Assembly (NCBI GenBank): GCA_026874595.1
Contig: CM049309.1
Span: 10,009,076-10,073,075 of the forward strand
Length of the DNA stretch: 64,000 nucleotides
Direction of reading: 5' to 3'
From: Sipunculus nudus
Lineage: Eukaryota > Annelida > Sipuncula > Golfingiida > Sipunculidae
The notes under the pieces were generated by a model, which saw nothing but the letters and a program-made list of their open reading frames with translations, was not told where the DNA came from and did not search any database. This document shows, piece by piece, positions 5,308 to 51,268 of this stretch (position 1 is the stretch's first letter; the number at the start of each line of letters is the position of its first letter). Position numbers and translations under genes: made by a program.

Positions 5308-5600
5308 TTCATTGCTTGCCGGAATCAAAGATTTCGGCAAGCATATTGCTCAGTTGCGTATGTCTGTTTGTTACTTGCCGGAAATCTTCGATTTTCGCAA
5401 GTATGTTGGTCAGTTCCGTATGTTTGTTTGTTTGTTTGTCTGTCTGTCTGTTTGTTTGTCGGTGCTCTACAGGCCACAATTCTGAAGCAATCGCCCTGAA
5501 ACTTATAGAAAAAGTGTAAAATTGAAAACCCTGGGTGCCTATTGTTTTTGGCCTTGAACGGTTCAAGGTCAAGGTCAGGGTCCCTGAAAAACCTTAAAAC
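5308..5600 (+). repeat. Interspersed repeat head with GCTTGCCGG hairpin and TCTG array
   Basis: GCTTGCCGG and CGGCAAGC face each other around GAATCAAAGATTT, a possible hairpin. Then come TGTTTGTCTGTCTGT runs and AAGGTCAAGGTCA. The same head is at 10412-10640, and a variant (CCGGCAAGTGTTCGACC) is at ~8530 and ~12380. Confidence 0.7.
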
Positions 5601-7084
5601 GGATTTTCCTTCATATCTTTGTAAAAAATAATCGTAGCGGCTTATTCTTTAGCTCATTTTATTCCTCATCATGTTACCTTTCCACATGCTAGCAAATATC
5701 TCTGATCATTCGTTACCATAGTAACGTATTTTTGGGAAGAAATGATAGAATTCGATATTTTCTTTCTAAATTTTTCATTTTTAAAGCTAGAGAGTTCTAG
5801 TTTTCTGCATCAGGTAGTATTTCATGAGCTGTTGATGATAGAATTGTTAATCCCGCAAAACCTCGCACTATTTCTCGTCAAACGAGAGTTTTCGAGATTT
5901 CATTAAATATGACCTGCAGGTTGCATTTTATTAACAATGGCTTTGAAATTAATGTATTTTGTGTTATTTATAAATATCTCGAAATCGTTTTTTCATTTTT
6001 TTAAAAAAGCCACCAGGGGGCGTGGTACTGGTAACACTACAACTTATCATTTTTGCACAACATCTTAAAAAATATTAAGCATATAACAATTTCTTTTGTC
6101 GCATCTAAGACTAGGATCATTGGCTTATTCCTGGGTACATGTAGCTTTGTGCTGCCGTTACCATGGTAACCAAATTTTGGGGTAAAACTTGACAATCTGA
6201 AAATAATTAGTTTTTTGCTTCTATCTCTGTTGATATTTATACTTCAAGGGTCTAGTTTTCTGCATGAGGTAGCATTCCTTTGGCTCCAATCCAGTCAATT
6301 GGAAGTCTCGTAGAATCTCGATCTGTTTTTCCGTCAAACGAGAAATTACGAGATTTCGCAGAAATGCTGATAACTCGATCACGTTTTAGGTTAAAGAGTA
6401 TACGGTTTCAGCCTCTGGTAGCCTTTCGGAAGCTTAACATGATAAAACTGCAAATCTCGCCAAATCTCGCATCATCTACCGCCAAACGAGAATATTCGAT
6501 ATTTTGAACAAAATATTCAACAAATGTCTTTATCTCTTTCAATTTTATGCTAGAGATTTTATTTTTCTACTGTTCAACAATCATTTGATTAGTGTTAAGT
6601 GATATAAATGAATATCTCGTTATATCTCGCACCATTTGTCGTCAAACGAGAACAGTGGACCATTTAAACAAATGCCTATTATGCTGTCATTTTATACCCT
6701 ACAGACATATAGTTTTTAGCATTTGACAGCGTCTGACACTCTCATTCACATCATGTGATTTTATTGCAATTCTCGTCAAATCTTGCCTCGTTTTTCATCA
6801 AATGATGAAAATACATCCAATTGCCGTGAGCACAAGTGGCTTCAGGGTTGACCGGTAAGTGCCGGCAAGGCTATTACAGTTGCATGTTGGCGTGCGCGGT
6901 CGTCCATGAATCTCACAAAGCAGCATTGAATAGAGGACAAAAGCCGCTAAATGTGGAGGGAACACACCTGTGATTTTTATTGTGTCCCCTTGTGCGGCCA
7001 CTTGTGTTGCCAGGAACCACTGGCAAATCTTTGAAACCAGGGACGGATCCCCGATTTTGTAGTTGGGGGTGTCAAAATATGGGC

Positions 7085-7965
7085 TGATCCCTGGTTAAGC
7101 AGTTGGGGGCAGAAGTTAAATTTTAATTATACATCAAATATATATATTAAAATAAAATATCTGGAAATTTATTTTTTCCTTTTAGAAAATAGCCCCCAGA
7201 TGGCGCTGCAGCAATCATAATTGTGCCATATCTCCAAAACTATAGACAGTGTCACAACATTGATTGCAGCTTCTGAAACTATATTTAATGCGTTTAACCT
7301 CGTTGGGACTCTGTTGTATTCTGTGGGGGTTAAATTTTAGTTATACATAAAATATATATAATAAAAATTAAAATATCGCGAAACTATTTTTTTTCCCTTT
7401 CAGATGGCGCTGCAGCAATCATTATTGTGCCATATCTCCAAAACTATAGACAGTGTCACAACATTGATTGCAGCTTCTAAAACTAGATTTAAAGCGTTTA
7501 ACCTCGTGGGGACTGTCGTATTCCGCGGGGGTTAAAGTTTAATTATACATAAAATATATATAATTAAAAATAAAATATCTCGAAACTATTTTTTTTCCTT
7601 TCAGATGGCGCTGCAGTAATCATTATTGTGCCCTATCTCCAAAACTATAGACGGTGTCACAACATTGATTGCAGCTTCTGAACCTAGATTTAATGCGTTT
7701 TCCTCGTGGGGACATTGTCATATTCAGCAGAAGTTTAAATTTAATTATACATCAAATATTTATTATAAAAAAATAAAATATCTCAAAACTTACTTTTTGT
7801 CCTTTTAATAATAGCCGCCAGATGGCACTGCAGCAATCATTTTTTTGCCATATCTATAAAACTAGAGATAGTGTCACAACATTGATTGCAGCATCTGAAA
7901 CTAGATTTAATGGGTTTATCCTCGTGAAGACTGTCATATTCTTCCGTTACCATGGGGGCCTAATA
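7085..7965 (+). repeat. Tandem array, about 200-bp unit
   Basis: AGATGGCGCTGCAGCAATCA marks units at 7198, 7402, 7603 and (one change) 7820. Each is followed by CCATATCTCCAAAACTATAG and ACAACATTGATTGCAGCTTC. Spacing is 204, 201 and 217 bp. A further copy lies at ~8265-8470 (marker at 8410). Confidence 0.85.
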
Positions 7966-8676
7966 TAGGTTACAATTAAATTCTTCTTTTTCCTGAAATT
8001 CATAATATGAAGATTTATTCTAATTGACTGACGCTTATTTTATTCATGCTTTCCATTCTCCATGACAGGAGTACATTGCCTACACATGGAGTTATTTTCC
8101 GTCTGTCTGTCTACTCATTTGTGGCTATTGAAAATCAGCGAAATCACATAAAAATGTACTTCCATTTTAACCATGATAGCGGTTGTTCATTTGATCAAAT
8201 CCAAACGTTCCCTGTCTGCCTGACTAGTAACTGTCCGTCTGTTTTGCTGTCTAATTTTGTGGCCATTTCCGGAACTAGATTTAATGCCTTTAACCTCGTG
8301 GGGACTCTGTCGTATTCTGCGGGGGTTAAATTTTAATTATACATCAAATATATATAATAAAAAAATAAAATGTCTCGAAACATTTTTTGCCCTTTTAGAA
8401 ATAGCCGCCAGATGGCGCTGCAGCAATCATCATTGTGCCATATCTCCAAAACTATAGACAGTGTTATACGTTCCCTGTCTGTCTGCCTAGTAACTGTCTG
8501 TCTGTTTCGCTGTCTTATTACCGGCCATTTCCGGCAAGTGTTCGACCTCTGGTCGTCTAGTCTGTTTGTTTGTTTGTCTGCACTCTCCTGGCCACAATTT
8601 TGCCACAATCACCTTGAAACTTACAGGGATGATGAAAAACATAATTTCTAGGTGCCCTATTGTTTTTGGTTAAAAT

Positions 8677-8701
8677 AGGTCAAAGGTCAAGGTCAAGGTC
8701 A
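8677..8701 (+). promoter_or_regulatory. Cluster of four AGGTCA half-sites in a repeat
   Basis: AGGTCA at 8677, 8684, 8690 and 8696 (spacers 1, 0, 0). The first pair forms AGGTCAAAGGTCA, a canonical DR1 element of RXR/HNF4-type receptors. The same cluster is at ~10598-10621. Function is unproven; it is part of a repeat unit. Confidence 0.4.
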
Positions 8702-9639
8702 CGACAGGTATGGTTAACGGTTTTTGCACTATAACTTCGCCATAAATAGGCTTATCCACTTCTGCAATAGCTCATTTTTTTCGTCATCACCTGGCCTTTC
8801 TTTTGACATGTAGCTTACTTAAATTTGCTGTTACCATGGTTACGCAATTTTGGGGAGAAATCATGGAATTTCCTGATATTTTTCAAATTTGCAGCAATCG
8901 TACTGATTCTGAGATATTTTATGTAACACAAGAATATCTCGAAATTGTTTTTTCAGATTTTGGAAATGGCCGCCAGGGGGCGTTGCAGATGAAAAAACAT
9001 GAAAATTTGTTTTGGTGCTATACCTCCAGAACTATTAAACATTGGGCCATTTCCATCACAGCACCTTCAACTGGGGTCCATGGGCTTATTTTTGCGCATA
9101 GGTGCCAAAGTGCACTATTGCCAGATTTCTCTATTTTTGGGGTAAAACTTTTGAATTTTGAAAATATGCAGTTTTCAGCTTCTAACTCTGTCAGTTTTTA
9201 TGCTGGAGAGGTCAATTTTTTTGCATCTTGTAGCCCTTGGTGGGCTCTCGGTGATCCAATCAAAAATCTTGCAAAATCTCGCACCGTTTCTCGTCAAACA
9301 AGAGTCTTCGAGATTTCATTAAATATGACCTACAGGTTGCATTTTTTTAACAATGGCTTTGAAATTGATATATTTTGTGTTATTTATAAATATCTCGAAA
9401 TCAGTTTTTCATTTTTTGGAAATAGCCACCAGGGGGCGTGGTACCTGAAACACTGTAACATATCATTTTTCTGCAATATCTAAAATAATTTTAAACATGG
9501 CACAATTTTTATCGTTGTATCTTAAACTAGGAACATTGGCTTATTCCTCCACACATGTAGCTTTGTGCTGCCGTTACAATGGTTACCAAATTTGTGGGTT
9601 AAACTTGACGATCTGAAAATATGCAGTTTTTGGCTTCTA

Positions 9640-10400
9640 TCTCGGTTAATATTTATGTTTCAAGGGTCTAGTTTTTTGCATAAGGCTGCTTCCCCTTGGT
9701 TCTAAGTCATTCAATTGCAAGTCTCGTCAAATTTCGCTCGGTTTATCGTCAAACGAGAAAAAACGAGATTTCACGGAAATGCTTATAACTCGGCGACTTT
9801 TACAGCTACACAGGTCTAGTTTTCGGCATTTCATAACATATGACCAGCTTGACACGCCAGAAAAGAAATCAGGCCAAATCTCGCACCATATCTCGTCAAG
9901 CGAGAAAAAAACGAGATATCATGGAAATGCTTATAACTAGGCGACTTTTACAGCTACTCAGGTCTAGTTTTTGGCATTTGGTAACATTTGGCCAACTTGA
10001 CATAGTAAAACTGCGATACTTGGCAAAATCTCGCACTACATCTGGTCAAATGTGGAAAAAAGAGATTTCACAGAAATGCATATAAGTCGGCGACTTTCAC
10101 AGCTAGACAGGTCTAGTTTTTGGCATTCATTAACATTTGGACGGCTTGACATGACAAACCTGCAAGACTGGCCAAATCCTGCACCATATCTCGTCAAACG
10201 AGAAAACACGAGAGTACACGGAAATGCTTATAACTCGGCGACTTTTACAGCTAGACGGATCTAGTTTTCGCCATTTCGTAACGTTTGGCCGTCTTGACAT
10301 AATAAAACTGCTCGTCTTGCCAAATCTCGTACTATATCTCGTCAAGCGAGAAAAAAACATGATTTCACGTAAATGCTGATAACACGGCGACTTTTGCAGC
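9640..10400 (+). repeat. Tandem array, about 148-bp unit, with internal palindrome
   Basis: TCTCGTCAAGCGAGA-type palindromes lie at 9744, 9891, 10041 (degenerate), 10189 and 10337. Each is preceded by AAATCTCGCACCATA and followed by ACGAGATTTCACGGAAATGC. Spacing is 147, 150, 148 and 148 bp. Single related units lie at ~5870, ~6340, ~6480, ~6640 and ~9290. Confidence 0.85.
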
Positions 10401-10979
10401 TAGTTTGTTGCTTGCCGGAATCAAAGATTTCGGCAAGCATATTGGTCAGTTGCGTATGTCTGTTTGTCTGTCTGATTGTCTGTCTGTCTGTTTGTTTGTT
10501 TGTCTGCACTCTCCTGGCATTTTGCCACAATCACCTTGAAACTTACAGGGATGATGAAAACATAATTTCTAGGTGCCCTATTGTTTTTGGTTAAAATAGG
10601 TCAAAGGTCAAGGTCAAGGTCGTCAAAACTTCTCAAAACGGTTTTTCTTCATATCTTTGTGACTATTAGTCGTATCTACTTCAACAATAGCTTATTTTAT
10701 TTGTCATTCCAAGGCCTGTCATCTGGTGTGTAGCTGACTCAAATTTGCCGTAACTATGGTTACAAATTTTAGGGGAAAAGTCATGATATTCGAAAATAAT
10801 GGGTCTTATTTTTCTAACTTTGTCAGTTTTAAAATTAGAGTGATCTAGTTTTTTGCATCAGGTAGCATTCAACTAGTACAACAAGATTTTATTACAAGTC
10901 TTGCAGTATCTCGTAAAATATCTCGTGAATAGAGATATTTCGAGATTTCATTCATCTTGCGCCAAAGGCCACATTATTG

Positions 10980-12410
10980 CAGGTATCTTTTTGAAACTGA
11001 CATATTATAAGTCCTACACTAGTATCTCGAAATCTTTTTTTCAATTTTTGAATAGGGCTGCTAGGGGGCGCTGGATGCGAACCTCCCGAACATATCATAT
11101 TTTGGCCATACCTCCGAAATTATAAGCCTCAATTACATAAACTAAAGCTTATTTTCTTCCTCTGAGTTTTCTCCATAACCCAGTGTAGTCATCTGGTCAC
11201 AATTTTGTGATGCTTTGTCAGTGTGTCTGTCTGTTTGTCAGTTGTCCTATAATTCGCCTGCTTGCTCTTGCGTCTCACATATAGCATTCTACAGGCCACA
11301 GTTTTGAAAGAATCCTTTTGAAACCATTACATCTTGAGTCTTACACTAATATCTCGAAACCAATTTTTCATTTTCCGGATATGGCCGCTAGGGGGCGCTG
11401 AACTCGAACCTCTCCCAACATATCATGCTTTGGCAATATCTCCAAAACTATAAACCTCAGTTACATAAACTGTAGCTTTTTTCTTCCTTTGAGTCTTCTC
11501 CATAACCTGGAGTAGTCATCTGGACTCAATCTTGAGTCACTTTGTCAGTGTGTCCGTCTGTTTGTCAGTTGTCCTCAAATTCGCCTGCTTGCTGGTTTTT
11601 GCGTCTCACATATAGCATTCTATAGGCCACAGTTTTGAAGGAATCTTTTTGAAACTATTACATCATATGTCTTACACTAATATCTAGAAATAAATTTTTC
11701 ATTTTCTGGATATGGCCACTAGTGGGCGCTGCACACGACCCTCACACACATACCATTGTATTGGCCATATCTCTACACCAAAAGCCTCAGTTACATAAAC
11801 TATAGCTTATTCTTTTCCTTTGAGTCTTCTCCATAACTTGATTAAGGCATCTGGTTTCAATCTTCTATCACTTTGTCAGTGTGTCCATCTGTTTGTCCGT
11901 TATCCTCAAAGTCGCCTGCTTGCTGGTTCTTACGCCTTACATATAGCATTCTATAGGCCATAGCTTTGACGGAATTCTTTTGAAACTGGGACATCTCATG
12001 TCATACACTAATAATACGAAATGCATTTGTCGTCTTCGGAATATGTCCGCTAGAGGGCGCTACAGTCGAACCTCCCAAGTATATCATTAATTCGCCATAC
12101 CTCCAAAACTATAAATCTAAATTACATAAATTATAACTCATTTTCTTCCTTTGAATCTTCTCCATAACTAGGTTAAGTCATCTGGTGTCAATCTTGTCTC
12201 ACAAAGTCAGTATGTCTGTCCGTTCGTCTTTTGTAGTCAGCTTTGTCTGCTTGCCTGTTCTTTTGTCTCATATGTCATTCTACGGGCCACATATTCTCAG
12301 CAATGTACCTGAGAGTCCTTCCATTAATAGAAAACCGACAATATGTTCTGTCTGTCCATCTGTGTTTCACTTCCGATTTCCGGCAAGCGTTCGACCTATG
12401 GTCGTCTAGT
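10980..12410 (+). repeat. Tandem array, about 330-bp unit, with GGGGGCGCTG boxes
   Basis: The GGCGCT box lies at 11067, 11394, 11725 and 12056 (spacing 327, 331, 331). Units share CTAATATCTCGAAA, TCCAAAACTATAA, CTTTGTCAGTGTGTC and ACATATAGCATTCTA. Each carries a CTCF-like core motif. Confidence 0.88.
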
Positions 12411-12586
12411 TTTTTTAGTTTTTATCTCTTTGAGTATTAAATTTGGTTACATGTAGTGTAAAATAATCAGCAAGCCATCAGTGTGATAAACTGCTCATGA
12501 ACTGAATTGTTATAACACCTCTAGAATGGTCAAATATGTGAAATCAGCTGTAACCACTTATTAAGCAAATCTTTTGATTATACTAT

Positions 12587-12810
12587 ACTTGGTGCACTTA
12601 ATGAACATTTAGTACACAAATATCCTGTTTGTGAAGTATGGTTTCAGAATAATCCCTGTCTTACTGTACTTGGTATACTTAAAGGACTTTCAGTAGACTT
12701 GAATTTCATGTTTGTGAATGTATGGTGCCATACACTACTTTGTGCACTTAATGGACTTTAAATACACTTGCATATCATTTTTGTGAACGTATGGTGCCAT
12801 ACAGTTAATA
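12587..12810 (+). repeat. Short tandem repeat, about 70-80-bp unit
   Basis: ACTTGGTGCACTTAATG-like phrases at 12587, 12668 and 12737 alternate with TTTGTGAATGTATGGTGCCA. Confidence 0.65.
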
Positions 12811-12934
12811 AGTTCTAAAAAAATATACTTTAGCAAATGACTTTGGTAGTGTTTGATAGAAAAAAGGCATGTTAACTTGCATATACGTAAATTAATGCCG
12901 TAAAAACGTCTTTGAAGTGATCCTCAAATAAATG

Positions 12935-13079
12935 TACCTGTACCTAGGTACTTTCTAAAGTACCTGTACCTGTACCTCGGTACTCTGTGAAAATCAAGTA
13001 CCTGTACCTGTACCTTGCCAATTCACAAGTACCTGTACCTGTACCTAGGTACTTTCACTTGTACCTGGCCCCATCCCTG
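12935..13079. repeat. GTACCTG repeat, right copy
   Basis: Many GTACCTGTACCTG units end at GGCCCCATCCCTG, the inverted counterpart of the motif at 5172. Confidence 0.75.
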
Positions 13080-32200: not shown

Positions 32201-35200
32201 ATGGCACAATAGCATGAAGTTATAGCACTGGCCTTTTATTCATAACCAAGTGGGTCAAGTGTCATTAAGAGTTTTTTTGTCCCCTGCTTCCTGGAACAGG
32301 GGACATTGATTTGGGTTTGTCTGTCCCTCTGTCTGTCCATCCTTCAGGTTTTCATTTCCCTGTGATATCTTTCCTAAATATTATCCAATTTTATTCAAAT
32401 TTTGGTCAGTGATTGCTTTCATGCATAACTTGGTTGGGATTGGTTTTGGAGTGTCTGTCTGAATAATTATTTTCCCTAGCTCCAAAAAAAATTAAATTTT
32501 GTTCCCATTGTTTTGACACTTTAACCCACATATCTTGGGACTCGTTTGACCAGTTGTGAAAGAAATTTGCACAAATGTAGCCCTTGGATAGCTTTATAAC
32601 ATACACAAAAATGGTGGCACCAACTGCAACCATTTTTGCACAGCATCCATTTGTTCATCTGCCTTGGGTTATAATCACTCATATCTCTGCAGTGGTTTGA
32701 TGAATTCACCTGAAATTCGTCATGCATATACATCCCAGATAGCTTTCTTGATTTTATGACAGGTGGTGCCACCTTTATTCATGTTCACACTGCAGACATC
32801 TATGCTTATTTCTCTAGACTGGTTTGACGTATCTTCCTGAAAATTTGCATGTGTTTAGATCTCAAAAAGCTCTATCATACACAAAACTGGTGGTCCCACC
32901 TGCAACCATTTTTTCACAGCGTCCATCTGTTTGTCTGCTTTGGGATAAAATCACTCATACCTCGGCAGTGATTTGACTTTTCCACCTGAATTTTTCATGT
33001 ATATACATCTTGGATAGTTTTCTCGTTCAAATAACAGGTGGCGCCATCTAAAGTCATGTTTATTAGCCAGACATTCATGCTAATATGTGACACATCTAAT
33101 TCTAACTCTTCTTGCCATTCAATCCATGCCTCACTTCATCCGTCCTACTCTGATTTTGGCAGATACACATAGTTGCTTGTCACCTACCAATATTCTAGTT
33201 TATACTTGGGGGGGGGGGGGGGGGGTATCAAGATTAACTCTTATGGCAAATGAAGCCTTCTTAAGGTATTGCATTTCTGTTATATTTAAGCAAAATAATA
33301 ATTTTCAGTATTTACTGTTATATTTTAATAAACCGATACCCTGGGTTTAAGTGAATGTCTACTTTATCCTCTGTTGTATAACATGGTATTTAATCAGTCA
33401 GTCAATATGTGTTGCACCTAAAATAAATGAAAATGAATATTTAAAATCATATATATCATTTTTTATTTTTTAGTTTTCATAGATAAACAGTATAAATATA
33501 AGAAAATTAAAGATATAACCTTTCAGAACTTATCAATCATTGCCTCCATAGGGCACCTTAACTGCAACAAAAAATAAAACCTCTAGAAAATCTTTTTTAT
33601 ATCTTTACTAATTGTCTGTTGCTTCCTTCAAAATCATTATAAATTTGGTCAGTGACTTAAGTGTCATTCATTTATATTGCAGGTCTTGGTTGAATATTCT
33701 TGTATTTAAATACAATTTAGTGAATTTTCATGAAACTCTCTACATATGGTTACCAATAGAGTTTCTTACCTCAGCCAAATTCACACATATTTAATTAGTT
33801 CAGAGATCACTAGGCTGCTTTATACAGGCCAATTGGTGGTAACACTGCAATAACATACAAGGAATATAATGGATTTTTATAAAACGCAGTAGAAATATTT
33901 ATCAAATAATATCTCGCGTAAGTTTTGTTTTCAGCAGAGTCCATGCATATTTAATGAGGTAAGAGATCACCACACTTTGGTGGCACCACCCTGACTTACC
34001 AAAAATCTGATGGATTTTCATATAACTCATGATGAATATTAACCAATACTGTTTTTTACCTGATTTACCTTCTCAGCAAATTCATGCATATTTAATGAGG
34101 TCAGAGGTCACAAAATATGCAACAGGCATATTATGCACCATTTGCAGTACTCTTTGTTATTACATAGTTTATAACTCATTAAATATAAACATTTTACAAA
34201 CATAAGAATTTAAAAAATGTACACTCCATTCATCAAAATTAAACAATTTTGTGAATTGTGATGCATGTATCCTATGTTTTGCAATCCTAATGCTTTTGTT
34301 GATCTGTCACTTTGTCTTGCATCTTGACAGCTTGTATCGAGCGACAGCATCAGGTGTACCATACCTCGCCAAGTAATGACGTCTTGGAAGGCATGACGTC
34401 ATATCACTCTGTAGAGAGTCTGCTGATGAATCTAACAGCTAACGCTCCAAATTCTCCGTTTAAAACCATGATTGCTTATCCTAAATCCTCGCATGGGTCG
34501 CATGTTCACTCTCCAGCTCATGCATGGCTTGAAACGTCTTTCTCTGTGGATAACAAAGCCCCAGAGACTACTTACCGCTATCAGATGGGTCCCCCTGACT
34601 ACCTGCTGAAACAGTATCAGCGGCGGTGCATGACAAGCCAAGAGCGAGCTCAGCTGTTGGCGAAAGTGAGTTCCATGGACGATGTGAACGTGAGAGACGT
34701 TATGCCTCAGAGGCCGATGCGTCCTCACAAACGTTGTTACTCCATGAATAATGTGCATGAGGTTGATCCGGTGCCTGAAAATAACCTTCCTCGTAAAACA
34801 CCGCTTGACTCACAATCCACGCTTACTAGTGATGACCAAGCTCCTTGTAACTATGGTTACTCTGTGGCCTTGACTAGCAAAACTCGTAGATGCCAAACCC
34901 TTGATAGAAAGCATCGTTTTGCAGATTCTGCAGAACTTGGTGCTATGAATAGAACAGATACCTTCTCGGATTTGCAAGAATGTGGACTTCTAGGTGATGA
35001 GGATGATGATGGTGATGTCATTCCCCCTCCCCGTCCTCCGCCTCCTTATATTCCTCCACCTGACTACAGAGATACTGTCAGTAACAGCGGTAGGCAATCA
35101 CGTAGCTCAAGTAGGCGGAGCTTGGACTGTCAATCACCTGGATCTGGTTCAGACCAATTCAGTCCTGAAAGGTATCACCAGTTGGACGTAACGCTAACTC

Positions 35201-35985
35201 CGGGACTGGACCGTGCATTTGTGACGGAGGAATCAACACGACCAACCCGCAGGAGAACCAGAAGGTCAACAGTTACTTGTAGTCGAGAAGTTGCCGAACA
35301 CATCAGTCCTCAGGAGTTTGACAGAACTGTGAGGAGTAACAGGAGTTACCGAGAGCTTCCCCGGGATTCCTCGTACTTGCAGGCTGTCAACAGGCATCAA
35401 TACAGTCCTATTCCTGGTGTACTCAGGCCACCGGCTCATTTTACTCCTCCGGTATTGGGTAAGTTTTTAAATCTGTAGTTACTTAATACATTGTAGTTGG
35501 CTCCATATTTGTGAGGTAAAATTTTTGCAGTGTTCACTTTTTCATTTTTTTGCGGAAGTTTTTGTGACCTCACTATGCATTAATCAAACTTTTTTTCAGC
35601 TTTTCTTAACAGAAGAGCACAGCATTGTGTTTGTTGTAGAAAATCTAGTGTACTTGAATAAACTCCTTTTGGATATAGAGACGGCATGCTTTCATTTTAA
35701 TATTACTATCAATTCATAAGATTTCTGTATGCTTTTGTGGTGAAACTGAATTCTTTTCGATAGGAAGATATTTGGGAATAATGGAACCCTTGAAACACCA
35801 CCAGGTTAAATTCTGTTGATCTTTAATGTTGATGAACCGTGTAAAAAACATGCAGTGGAAGAGAAAGATTTGATATTATTATGTAGTTCTTCACAGGTCA
35901 ACTTAATTTTCTTATAACATTATAAATGTATTCATTAGTGATACATGGAAAGGTTTATTTATTTTATAGGTCTTACCTTTTTAAA

Positions 35986-36023
<38 letters not shown>

Positions 36024-39000
36024 TTTTTGCCAGAGTTGCCCCCTCTGGGTAAGACAAAATTACGGGAAGCATTGCAGTTGGTCAGTTTACTGCTGCCCCC
36101 TGGTGGGAGGAAGAAACTTCAATACATCCTGCTGTTTCTGAGTACGTTGTCGGAACATCCACATCTACAGCTTTCACATGACTGCTCAAACAAAGAAACC
36201 GTGAGTACTTTGGCTTTGATAGTACTACTGCAGTTGTAATCTCATAGGGAATAATGATGTCCTATGCTTAAATCTGTATGATCTTGTCCTGGGAAAAAAG
36301 AACAGTATGGCTATTGATACCTGAAAACAGATTGTTTAAAAATTTAGAACAGGAACCTCAAACAGTGTGTTTTTTGTTATGCCTGAGTTTGTAAAATATT
36401 GACATATCTTGAACGATCCCCTGTCTAGGGATAAGCAAGGTCTTCAGCTCTGTCACCAAGAGACCTCACTCAGACAGCCCACCAGTGCATGCCAGATATT
36501 TTGTAACATTTAAAATCTCAAATTATTTGTAATTGTATACTGTGTTTGGCTTCATATTCATGAATCCATGTATATTCAATAAGGTCAAGGTCACTAGGCT
36601 ACTTTGTGGTGCGCCGCGATAACTTATGAAGAATACAATGGACTTTTTCAAGAGAAATATTAATCAGTATATCTTGCTAAGTGTGATTTCCAGCAAAATC
36701 CAGGCATATTTAATTGATGTCAGAGTTCACCAGACTTAAAAAAAAAATATTATGGATTTTCATAAATCTCATAATACCTAGTCAACATTTTAGTTTCTCA
36801 CCTTTATTGAATTCTCATCAAAATTCACACATTTAATGAGGTCAGAGGTCACAAGATATGCCACTTGCGTATTATGCACACTTTGTGGTGCTCTTGTTAT
36901 AGATGTCATAGTATTTCTTTTGTTTTGTTCTATATATTTATTTATTTTATATATTTATCTGTTTATAATTTCTCCCAGGTCATCTCTGATTTCACCTCTT
37001 GTTTGCTGGGCAATGAGAGCAGTCGGTCACCTGACATGTACTCTGCCAAACGATTGGTCGGTTTCTTGATAGAGATGCACGGTGATATAATGAAAATACC
37101 AGAAACACTCAAATTACAAATTGAAGAAAGACTGTCGTTTATGAGGCGTTCAAAGGTAACTGTCTTAATATATAATAAGATGCTAATTGATAAACATGTA
37201 AAGCAGGTCTCAACTGGTGCCACCTGGTGTTCATTTTTTTAAAAGATTTGTTACGTCATGTTCACATGAAAGTTGAAGGCTTCAGCTTTCTGTTATTTAT
37301 AATATTTGTATTTGGATGCTGATTAAGACAAAAAGAAAAGTTTATAACAATTTTTCAAGACAAAGATTATATGATAATGCTGCACTGTGCTCCCTGTTAA
37401 AAATGCAGAGTACATTAAAGTACACTTGACTGTACCAAATGGTTTGGTACAATGGATGGCACACAAAGCAAAGGAGGGTTTTTTTCCTCGCTTTGCAGTG
37501 CCTCCAAATGTATATCGGCCATTTTGCACAGCTGTGTAACAAAAGTGGAGATTTGCAGGGTTCATTGGCCTTCAGCCATGTTTCGATGATTTGCAGTATT
37601 TTATAATACCCTGTTTACACATGAATTATCAAAACAGTATTAGATGTCATCATTCTTTTAATAGATTATACAGGTAACTGCAGCTTTTAAAAAAACATGA
37701 ACAATTTCAGTCAGCACGCCTTTTGAGAGTACTAATGCTGTTCAGAATGTTTACATTATGTTAACTTGTTTAGAGGATTTTAGTGGTGAGTAGTTGATAT
37801 ATATTTAGTATTTATGGTAGTTGATGTTTTCATAGTAATTTTAGATAATTTATGGTTGTTGTTTAGATTGTATATGGTAGATGCTGCTGCCTTTGATGTT
37901 GTCCAATAGTGTTAGAACATGTCTGCAAAAGAACTGTGATACACATGGTGTAATACACCGGAAAATCCTACTACTTTGTAAATGTTTATTGGATATCATA
38001 TATTCACTTTTTCTTATAGAAAAGTTTAATATTCCTAGCTCATACTTAGCACTTTGATCAAGTTTACTCAAAGTAAAAAGCATTTATATTCATTATTGCA
38101 AGATTGTTAATAAGATTTTGTCAAAGAAACAAGTATCCATCCCCAAAGTGAACATATGATTATAAAACTAAATGTTTTCTATTTTACCTATTTTCTTTCC
38201 AGACATCATAAATTAAATATTGTGCATGTAGTTTGATAATATAATTGATGCTAACCATAACACCAAGTAATTTCAGTGAATTAATGATAATAACTGATCC
38301 TTCTAATAGTACCATAATTTTGTCAACAAGTGTGTCTTTTACTTTTACTTTATATTAACTATAACAGTAATATTAATTTTTTGTCTAACCAACGTGACTA
38401 GTGAAATTGAAAATAGTTCAGTTATCAAGTGAGTGTGATCACCATCAGTTTATGATTATACCATGGATGGATTTTAATACACATCAGCTAACCTGCTTTA
38501 CCAGAGACAGTTTATTCCTCATATCATTATTGCATTATAGTCAATCATTTATCAATCAGCTTTATATAATGACCCACATATCCAGTCAGCTCATCGTACT
38601 TAGTGATTGGTGATGGGTTTATCATAAAAACTGTATCTTGTAATTATTATTTAATGAATCAGAGCTGCCACTTCTATAACCCCTCACATTAGCAACTTTA
38701 ATGTTTTGGCATTAGTATGTGTGAATATATGTGTGTTATTTTCCAGAGCCAAATTATTTTTAACTGCATCAGTTGCAGTATCTCTGCACCAGTTTGCTCA
38801 GCGCAAGTCACAATTATAGGCTATATTTCTCTGAACAAGCTACTGTCCACTGTATTGAATTTTTTTCAACAGACCAGATCAGCATTCTGTAGAGTAATTG
38901 AATTTCTTAATGGATCTTGTAACCACAGGGATCCTCGAATCATTCCACATGTATGTAATTCTGGAGTTGCACAAGATCTCAAATGTTAAAGCCGAAATAT

Positions 39001-47055: not shown

Positions 47056-47199
47056 TGTCAGCTAGTGGCAGGGGAATGCTGGGATAATACAAATAGTACT
47101 GCCATCTAGTGGAGGAGGAATGCTTGGATATGATATACTGCACTGCCATCTAGTGGTGGGAAAGTGCTTGGATAAGCTGTTACATTGCCACCAAGTGAC
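47056..47199. repeat. 44-bp minisatellite with CTCF-like cores
   Basis: Units start at 47056, 47100, 47144 and 47186 (spacing 44, 44, 42) and share TGCCATCTAGTGG then GAATGCTTGGATA. Two units give a perfect CCACTAGATGGCA on the minus strand (47112-47100 and 47156-47144). Confidence 0.85.
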
Positions 47200-50973: not shown

Positions 50974-51268
50974 CTACTGTGTGAGAAAATAAAGGGCAGC
51001 AGGCGTGGATTTGACTCCCCAAGGCTGTGGTGGCAAAGTTTAGTGGTTGTCTAATTTAGTTACAAAAGTCACCACTAGATGGTAGCAACTACCATGTGGA
51101 CCTGGCCTTGAAATATTCCTCATTGAGTGGAACAGATTTCTTTCATTTCTCACTGGTGCAAACTTTTAGCTTTGTTCTTACAAATATGGGACCTGATACA
51201 AAGTGATAAAACAGGAGACTCTGCACAGCATAAAAACTCTGGCGCAGGTGATGGAAAGTCCTGGTCAC

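Follow-up and report, generated by a model that had tools for sequence, protein, structure and literature searches.

Between positions 6010 and 12059 of a 64,000-nucleotide stretch of the Sipunculus nudus genome (contig CM049309.1, positions 10,009,076 to 10,073,075 of the forward strand; hereafter the window) stand ten sequences that resemble the core of the animal CTCF binding motif, all pointing in one direction. The question that this locus raises is whether such an array is a chromosomal boundary, a motif carried by repeats, or a likeness shared by chance. We report that the ten sites belong to one repeated module inside a composite element with the anatomy of a non-autonomous Helentron (HINE). 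We somewhat favor the interpretation that spreading lineages of this element kept the CTCF motif, with the one-way arrays arising as a side effect of tandem amplification.

The ten CTCF-like sites were confirmed, and they greatly exceed chance expectation. The 13-mers listed in the original prediction were reproduced at their coordinates, all on the plus strand, and the 13-letter pattern CCASYAGRKGGCR with at most two mismatches matched the window 36 times, compared to a mean of 9.2 and a maximum of 20 in 100 shuffled sequences. Scoring with a hand-entered version of the vertebrate-type CTCF matrix JASPAR MA0139.1 gave 16 window sites above 15 bits, compared to a mean of 0.42 and a maximum of 2 in 100 shuffles. 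Ten of these 16 are the listed sites, which lie in 5401-13000, where 200 shuffles gave a mean of 0.035 and a maximum of 1. The best module score in the window is 27.5 of 32.2 possible bits. The strict 13-letter CCASYAGRKGGCR pattern fits 2 of the 10 window sites and 32 of 224 copies of the surrounding repeat; all ten sites and 208 of the 224 copies pass by matrix. Matched in this way by motif, the array sites are predicted CTCF sites.

The original prediction assigned the sites to three different repeat families, which proved incorrect. The ten sites were aligned with 60 genome copies picked by the downstream anchor ATATCTCCAAAACTAT alone, giving 66 different rows, and a module profile (hidden Markov model) was built from these 66 training rows, the ten window copies among them, with the 19 core columns masked. 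This masked-core profile places all ten sites in one homologous module of about 125 bp, which rules out three separate families and implies kinship among the 202-bp, 331-bp and longer repeats. The proposal that the motif had been kept or spread with the repeats therefore holds in part: the motif is repeat-borne and was spread, and there are no separate families each keeping it. The profile found 204 matches in the window plus 18 ten-kb stretches of contig C1, of which 201 span the core. Because the stretches were picked from listings of the anchor and the core pattern, the module density in them is not the density of the genome. Neighboring modules share a strand in 183 of 185 pairs in this set, and the single orientation noted at first thus holds almost throughout the arrays sampled. 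In the 18 stretches, 166 of the 185 matrix hits above 14 bits fall inside modules, and some of those outside are a weak opposite-strand site in a shared CTCTCCTGGCCA stretch.

In the window, the profile detects 12 plus-strand modules, spread over 5970-12120; its best match in the rest of the window has an E value no better than 2. Given with their masked-core profile score, followed by the 19-mer core, its position and its CTCF matrix score, the ten modules with a strong core lie at 5970-6080 (49.7 bits; AAGCCACCAGGGGGCGTGG at 6007, 20.8 bits), 7155-7247 (43.5; TAGCCCCCAGATGGCGCTG at 7190, 21.3), 7777-7867 (25.5; TAGCCGCCAGATGGCACTG at 7812, 22.2), 8369-8460 (41.8; TAGCCGCCAGATGGCGCTG at 8402, 23.6), 8921-9040 (45.8; TGGCCGCCAGGGGGCGTTG at 8967, 24.2), 9386-9484 (55.2; TAGCCACCAGGGGGCGTGG at 9423, 23.2), 11008-11132 (84.7; GGGCTGCTAGGGGGCGCTG at 11055, 16.7), 11337-11460 (114.8; TGGCCGCTAGGGGGCGCTG at 11382, 27.5), 11666-11789 (69.1; TGGCCACTAGTGGGCGCTG at 11713, 23.4) and 11998-12120 (73.8; TGTCCGCTAGAGGGCGCTA at 12044, 23.0). 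The two further modules, the third and fourth in order at 7372-7451 (32.9 bits) and 7573-7652 (31.3 bits), have a partly deleted core and no matrix hit above 9 bits.

These modules sit in a composite of head-to-tail units at 5312-12409 (plus strand), whose ends match ends found in the C1 stretches and which has colinear copies there. The composite has HINE anatomy: a left subterminal inverted repeat (subTIR) with a complementary inverted repeat (IR), a microsatellite, tandem repeats, and a right subTIR with a palindrome. Unit A (5312-8560; left end at 5315, right end at 8560) and unit C (about 10408-12409; left end at 10411, right end at 12409) have both ends recurring in C1 stretches, and unit B (about 8561-10407) lacks its left end. 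At the left end of unit A, subTIR GCTTGCCGGAATC and its complementary IR form a terminal inverted repeat hairpin at 5313-5343 (plus strand; DNA fold) with a 14-bp stem (-13.5 kcal/mol, z -5.3), and none of 200 shuffles folded as well. The recurring left end reads TTG-CTTGCCGGAATCAAAGATTTCGGCAAG followed by a TGTT/TCTG microsatellite, and a matching left end (at most 4 mismatches) was found at 20 places in 10 of the 18 C1 stretches. Tandem Repeats Finder located a microsatellite after each of these two left ends, of TGTT type in unit A (5421-5459) and TGTC/TGTT in unit C (10457-10506), both on the plus strand, as well as central satellite-like tandem arrays of 202, 148 and 331 bp. The recurring right end consists of TTCCGGCAAG and CGACC-N3-GGTCG-TCTAG, then T. 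In the window, it occurs on the plus strand at 8529-8560 in unit A (palindrome CGACC-TCT-GGTCG) and at 12378-12409 in unit C (CGACC-TAT-GGTCG), each with subTIR TTCCGGCAAG and a CTAG end; its fold energy alone is unremarkable (20 of 200 shuffles as good). Helentrons insert between two T residues, and unique flanks here mostly have T before TTG and T after CTAG, as seen at filled sites only.

Copies of these units elsewhere on C1 indicate how the array was built. Unit A has three tandem copies in stretch L140 (94.7-97.0% identity), units B and C are colinear in L132 and L138 (95.3 and 96.3% identity), and unit copies in other C1 stretches go down to 72% identity. Since growth is both tandem and head to tail, the shared direction of the sites is a by-product. 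Two modules are overlapped by a 245-amino acid open frame (8746-9483) for which Pfam gave no match; no RNA gene was found at Rfam gathering scores, and no tRNA. The 148-bp tandem repeat inside unit B (window 9746-10402) contains CTCGTCAAACGAG-type near-palindromes and has no matrix hit above 9 bits. The units also contain GGTCAAGGTCA runs (window 5561-5580, 8681-8700 and 10601-10620), which resemble nuclear-receptor half sites, so that additional binding sites may be present in the element.

In the 1.43 Gb of genome searched, GCCGCYAGGGGGCGCTG had 2,867 matches compared to 0 when read backwards, and CCASYAGRKGGCR had 11,362 compared to 168. Arrays like that of the window recur at many places on contig C1, the contig sampled. 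At C1:283609-306504, fourteen CCACCAGGGGGCG cores share a strand, at a usual spacing of 1.3 kb that is exceeded twice, and more anchors and cores follow to about 327 kb, making this array several times as long as that of the window.

The case that the motif mattered to the element comes from the kind of change in the core. Of 379 masked-core matches, 155 were dropped (duplicate, short or gapped), leaving 224 copies, 208 of which exceed 14 bits by matrix even though they were found with the core masked. Because the copies are related and nearly all come from contig C1, the p values below are approximate. The consensuses of 47 subfamilies had a mean matrix score of 20.5, compared to 17.3 when positions were block-permuted among positions of the same letter (p = 0.002). 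Other cut-offs gave p = 0.009 (18 subfamilies with at least 2 members), p = 0.008 (17 at 80%) and p = 0.033 (11); these permutation tests used ungapped cores only. Between subfamilies, changes tend to fall at positions 2, 8, 11, 12 and 17, where the matrix is permissive, and leave A9, G10 and G14 intact, although positions 5, 6 and 15 change as well. Private changes show no lean (-3.34 compared to -3.34, p = 0.53). On a tree built from the flanks, inherited changes averaged -1.5 bits compared to -2.8 bits for terminal changes (p = 0.004-0.04 over 20 reconstructions), and constrained positions were hit by 21 of about 55 inherited compared to 59 of about 110 terminal changes (p = 0.03-0.06). Consensuses above 14 bits were in excess when singletons were included (p < 0.005), and less clearly so without them (p = 0.05 to 0.21). 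These results suggest that changes between subfamilies are biased toward kinds that CTCF tolerates (p about 0.002-0.03). That inherited changes show this bias and private ones do not is consistent with a motif that was important in spreading lineages and was not kept copy by copy, which would argue against general host use of the sites, and more so against a kept boundary here.

Absence of CTCF from the species would have spoken against reading these sequences as CTCF sites, but a CTCF-encoding locus is present at C11:67037578-67038510. It matches residues 2-309 of a 314-residue query (the human CTCF fingers, entered by hand), covering all eleven fingers at 56% identity. Fingers 3, 4 and 5 have the same base-contact letters as this human sequence, and the letters of fingers 6-7 and 9-11 are partly different. 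With these contacts in fingers 3-5, the host protein should bind the module cores. The peptide SVYDFKEE precedes the fingers and is like the cohesin-binding YDF motif of human CTCF. Of two candidates for a second CTCF gene, on C7 and C17, the one on C7 was read; this runner-up was rejected, since its contact residues are unlike those of CTCF.

CTCF-type sites also occur dispersed, in a longer form. CCASYAGRTGGCA had 2,364 genome matches compared to 46 when read backwards; this form is present in none of the 224 modules, and its matches are scattered among the first 100 listed. Two sets were sampled: 40 sites from C1 (L161-L200; 40 different 53-mers, with L191 and L197 copies of one repeat) and 16 of L141-L160; among the first 20 dispersed regions fetched, L159 was a module and L152 and L158 shared another repeat. 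At the six matrix positions not used in the search, the 40 sites scored a mean of 0.65 compared to -2.88 bits, and none of 10,000 draws scored as high; A stands at -6 in 27 of the 40 and T at -12 in 31. Upstream, at -15 to -11, lies a TTAGTT-like box, giving an extended motif near TGGCCACCAGRTGGCAGCA. Exact TAGT stands upstream of 13 of the 40 sites in the first set and 5 of the 16 in the second, compared to a background of 3.1%, and is thus also absent from most of them; at the same position, it occurs in 0 of 224 modules. By these motif counts, the CTCF-type motif of this genome is extended and has two parts, of which the modules, lacking the box throughout, contain the core half only. Seen together with the partly different fingers 9-11 of the host CTCF, the longer form is a candidate lineage-specific two-part CTCF motif, and core-only sites without the upstream box may still be bound by CTCF.

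Three dispersed CTCF-type sites in the window matter below or illustrate this form. Those at 36091-36109 (24.8 bits) and 37215-37233 (22.8 bits) are on the minus strand, face the array, and have neither a module match nor an upstream TAGT. That at 51069-51087 (plus strand, 18.1 bits) has a TTAGTT box upstream, the only one of six non-module window sites checked that does. At window 47097-47159 (minus strand), two CTCF-type cores lie in a 44-bp tandem repeat in which the module profile finds no module. A coding-like, proline- and serine-rich open frame of 391 amino acids at 34303-35478 (plus strand) has no Pfam match.

The alternative that survives best is that the CTCF likeness is incidental: the core would be a G+C-rich part of the repeat, or a site for another zinc-finger protein or the machinery of the element, and common along with the element. 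We consider this possible but the less probable interpretation. In its favor, a single module accounts for all ten sites, and a series of observations weighs at the same time against a kept CTCF motif. The expectation of the original prediction that the core would change more slowly than the rest of the repeat was not realized; no clear difference was found, which is half of the outcome that it had taken to count against itself. Inferred changes per column on the tree were 8.7 in the core and 8.4 in the flank, and mean column conservation was equal. Private non-CpG changes affected 55 of 2,582 core positions (0.021) compared to 342 of 13,489 flank positions (0.025; p = 0.24, with one misaligned 4-member cluster included), and departures of subfamily consensuses from the majority amount to 0.155 of core compared to 0.184 of flank positions, both descriptive figures. 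The modules lack the upstream box, and in 165 of 224 copies CCG takes the place of the CCA preferred by the matrix; these two facts and the ordinary overall rate of change weigh most against a kept motif. Changes between the 47 subfamilies also reach two constrained positions, both in CpGs: position 5 in 10 subfamilies and position 15 in 8. With singletons left out, the excess of consensuses above 14 bits was weak (16 of 18 compared to 14.6, p = 0.21; 11 of 11 compared to 9.2, p = 0.11; 17 of 18, p = 0.05), and the first permutation test, in which the misaligned 4-member cluster was included, gave p = 0.11. With flank blocks held out (15 overlapping blocks), the inherited share was 0.28-0.32 in the core compared to 0.33-0.45 in the flank. 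A McDonald-Kreitman-like deficit of inherited core changes relative to the flank (Fisher p about 0.003) was set aside: it was small once flank blocks were held out, the count contrast having been inflated because the tree was built from flanks. A slower core in young copies (non-CpG changes 3/420 compared to 36/2,335, and 13/584 compared to 123/3,480) was likewise rejected, as the samples overlapped and the comparisons above disagreed. Against an incidental likeness stand matrix scores that reach 27.5 of 32.2 bits and the lean of subfamily changes, relative to permuted positions, toward loose matrix positions (p = 0.002-0.03), with private changes showing none.

The idea that the array at 6-12 kb is a host boundary, kept since it insulates the genes on either side, appears unlikely. 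Twelve same-direction modules, ten with a strong core, would suit such a role, and the reverse-facing sites at 36091 and 37215 could form convergent pairs with them. However, similar arrays occur at many C1 places, some with 93-97% identity, so that the window array looks recent, and private core changes appear unfiltered. The original prediction of a boundary at this array in particular thus received no specific support.

Core CpGs mutate about half as often as those of the flanks (26 of 518 compared to 64 of 652; p = 0.003 when counted per copy and 0.037 per event, with the misaligned cluster again in the data). Lower methylation of the core would have this effect, although other causes are possible, and we count the difference in favor of a kept CTCF motif. 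That the thousands of strong sites act as a sink that titrates CTCF or cohesin, a load tolerated or methylation-silenced by the host, is very improbable: copy number and the decay of single copies agree with it, but the low mutation of core CpGs argues against heavy core methylation.

This brings us back to the favored interpretation, in which the element retained a CTCF motif as it spread. The central tandem repeat unit of the HINE-like element contains a core site that would be a CTCF site, and, as its anatomy shows, tandem growth of this unit inside the element and head-to-tail chaining yield many same-direction sites. CTCF-compatible sequence would have been kept as element lineages diverged, while in single copies the core decays at about the rate of the flanks. 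The likeliest beneficiary of the motif is the element itself, which may, for instance, have gained open, unmethylated or cohesin-rich chromatin that aided persistence and replication; broad retention by the host is improbable. Any array that is occupied would halt cohesin arriving from one side. In vertebrates, forward CTCF sites loop toward reverse sites; by this rule, loops from the forward sites here would run to higher window coordinates, toward the reverse sites at 36091 and 37215. A stronger version, in which a Helentron-type lineage keeps a CTCF site because recruitment of CTCF and cohesin aids its spread, and thereby sows one-way barriers whose insertion direction shapes folding, is tentative, and we doubt it more than we believe it.

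An insertion of this kind can lay down a ready-made one-way array, and its effect on chromosome folding is now testable. The presence of one-way arrays beside dispersed single sites with the longer motif amounts to an internal experiment on one-sided cohesin stopping, and comparing inherited with private changes offers a simple means of asking whether a transposon-borne site serves the element or the host. In the one open library searched, we found no publication that describes Helentron-borne CTCF sites or arrays of CTCF sites in spiralian genomes.

Parts of this arrangement have counterparts elsewhere. The B2 SINE (short interspersed element) of rodents is a mobile element that carries and multiplies a CTCF motif. 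The likeness lies in the multiplication of a CTCF motif by a mobile element; the element here differs in being of rolling-circle type by its anatomy and in laying down arrays instead of single sites. As far as the passages on HINE structure in the oyster account go (PMC7492417), HINEs have a subTIR, a complementary IR, a microsatellite, central tandem repeats, a right subTIR and a palindrome, and the left microsatellite is mostly of 4 bases, with GTCY, GTCC and GTCK in several. Cg_HINE of Crassostrea gigas, Pearl of bivalves and DINE-1 of Drosophila share, by those passages, the anatomy of the window units. Unlike the HINEs treated there, the window units are chained into multi-kb one-way arrays, and their repeat unit carries a CTCF core, whereas the term "CTCF" is absent from the main text of that paper. 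A parallel in layout is the DXZ4/Dxz4 macrosatellite, described in a passage of PMC5899087 as a series of CTCF motifs that all point the same way and whose inversion reverses long-range contacts; DXZ4/Dxz4 is a single X-linked locus, in contrast to the dispersed arrays of mobile-element type found here.

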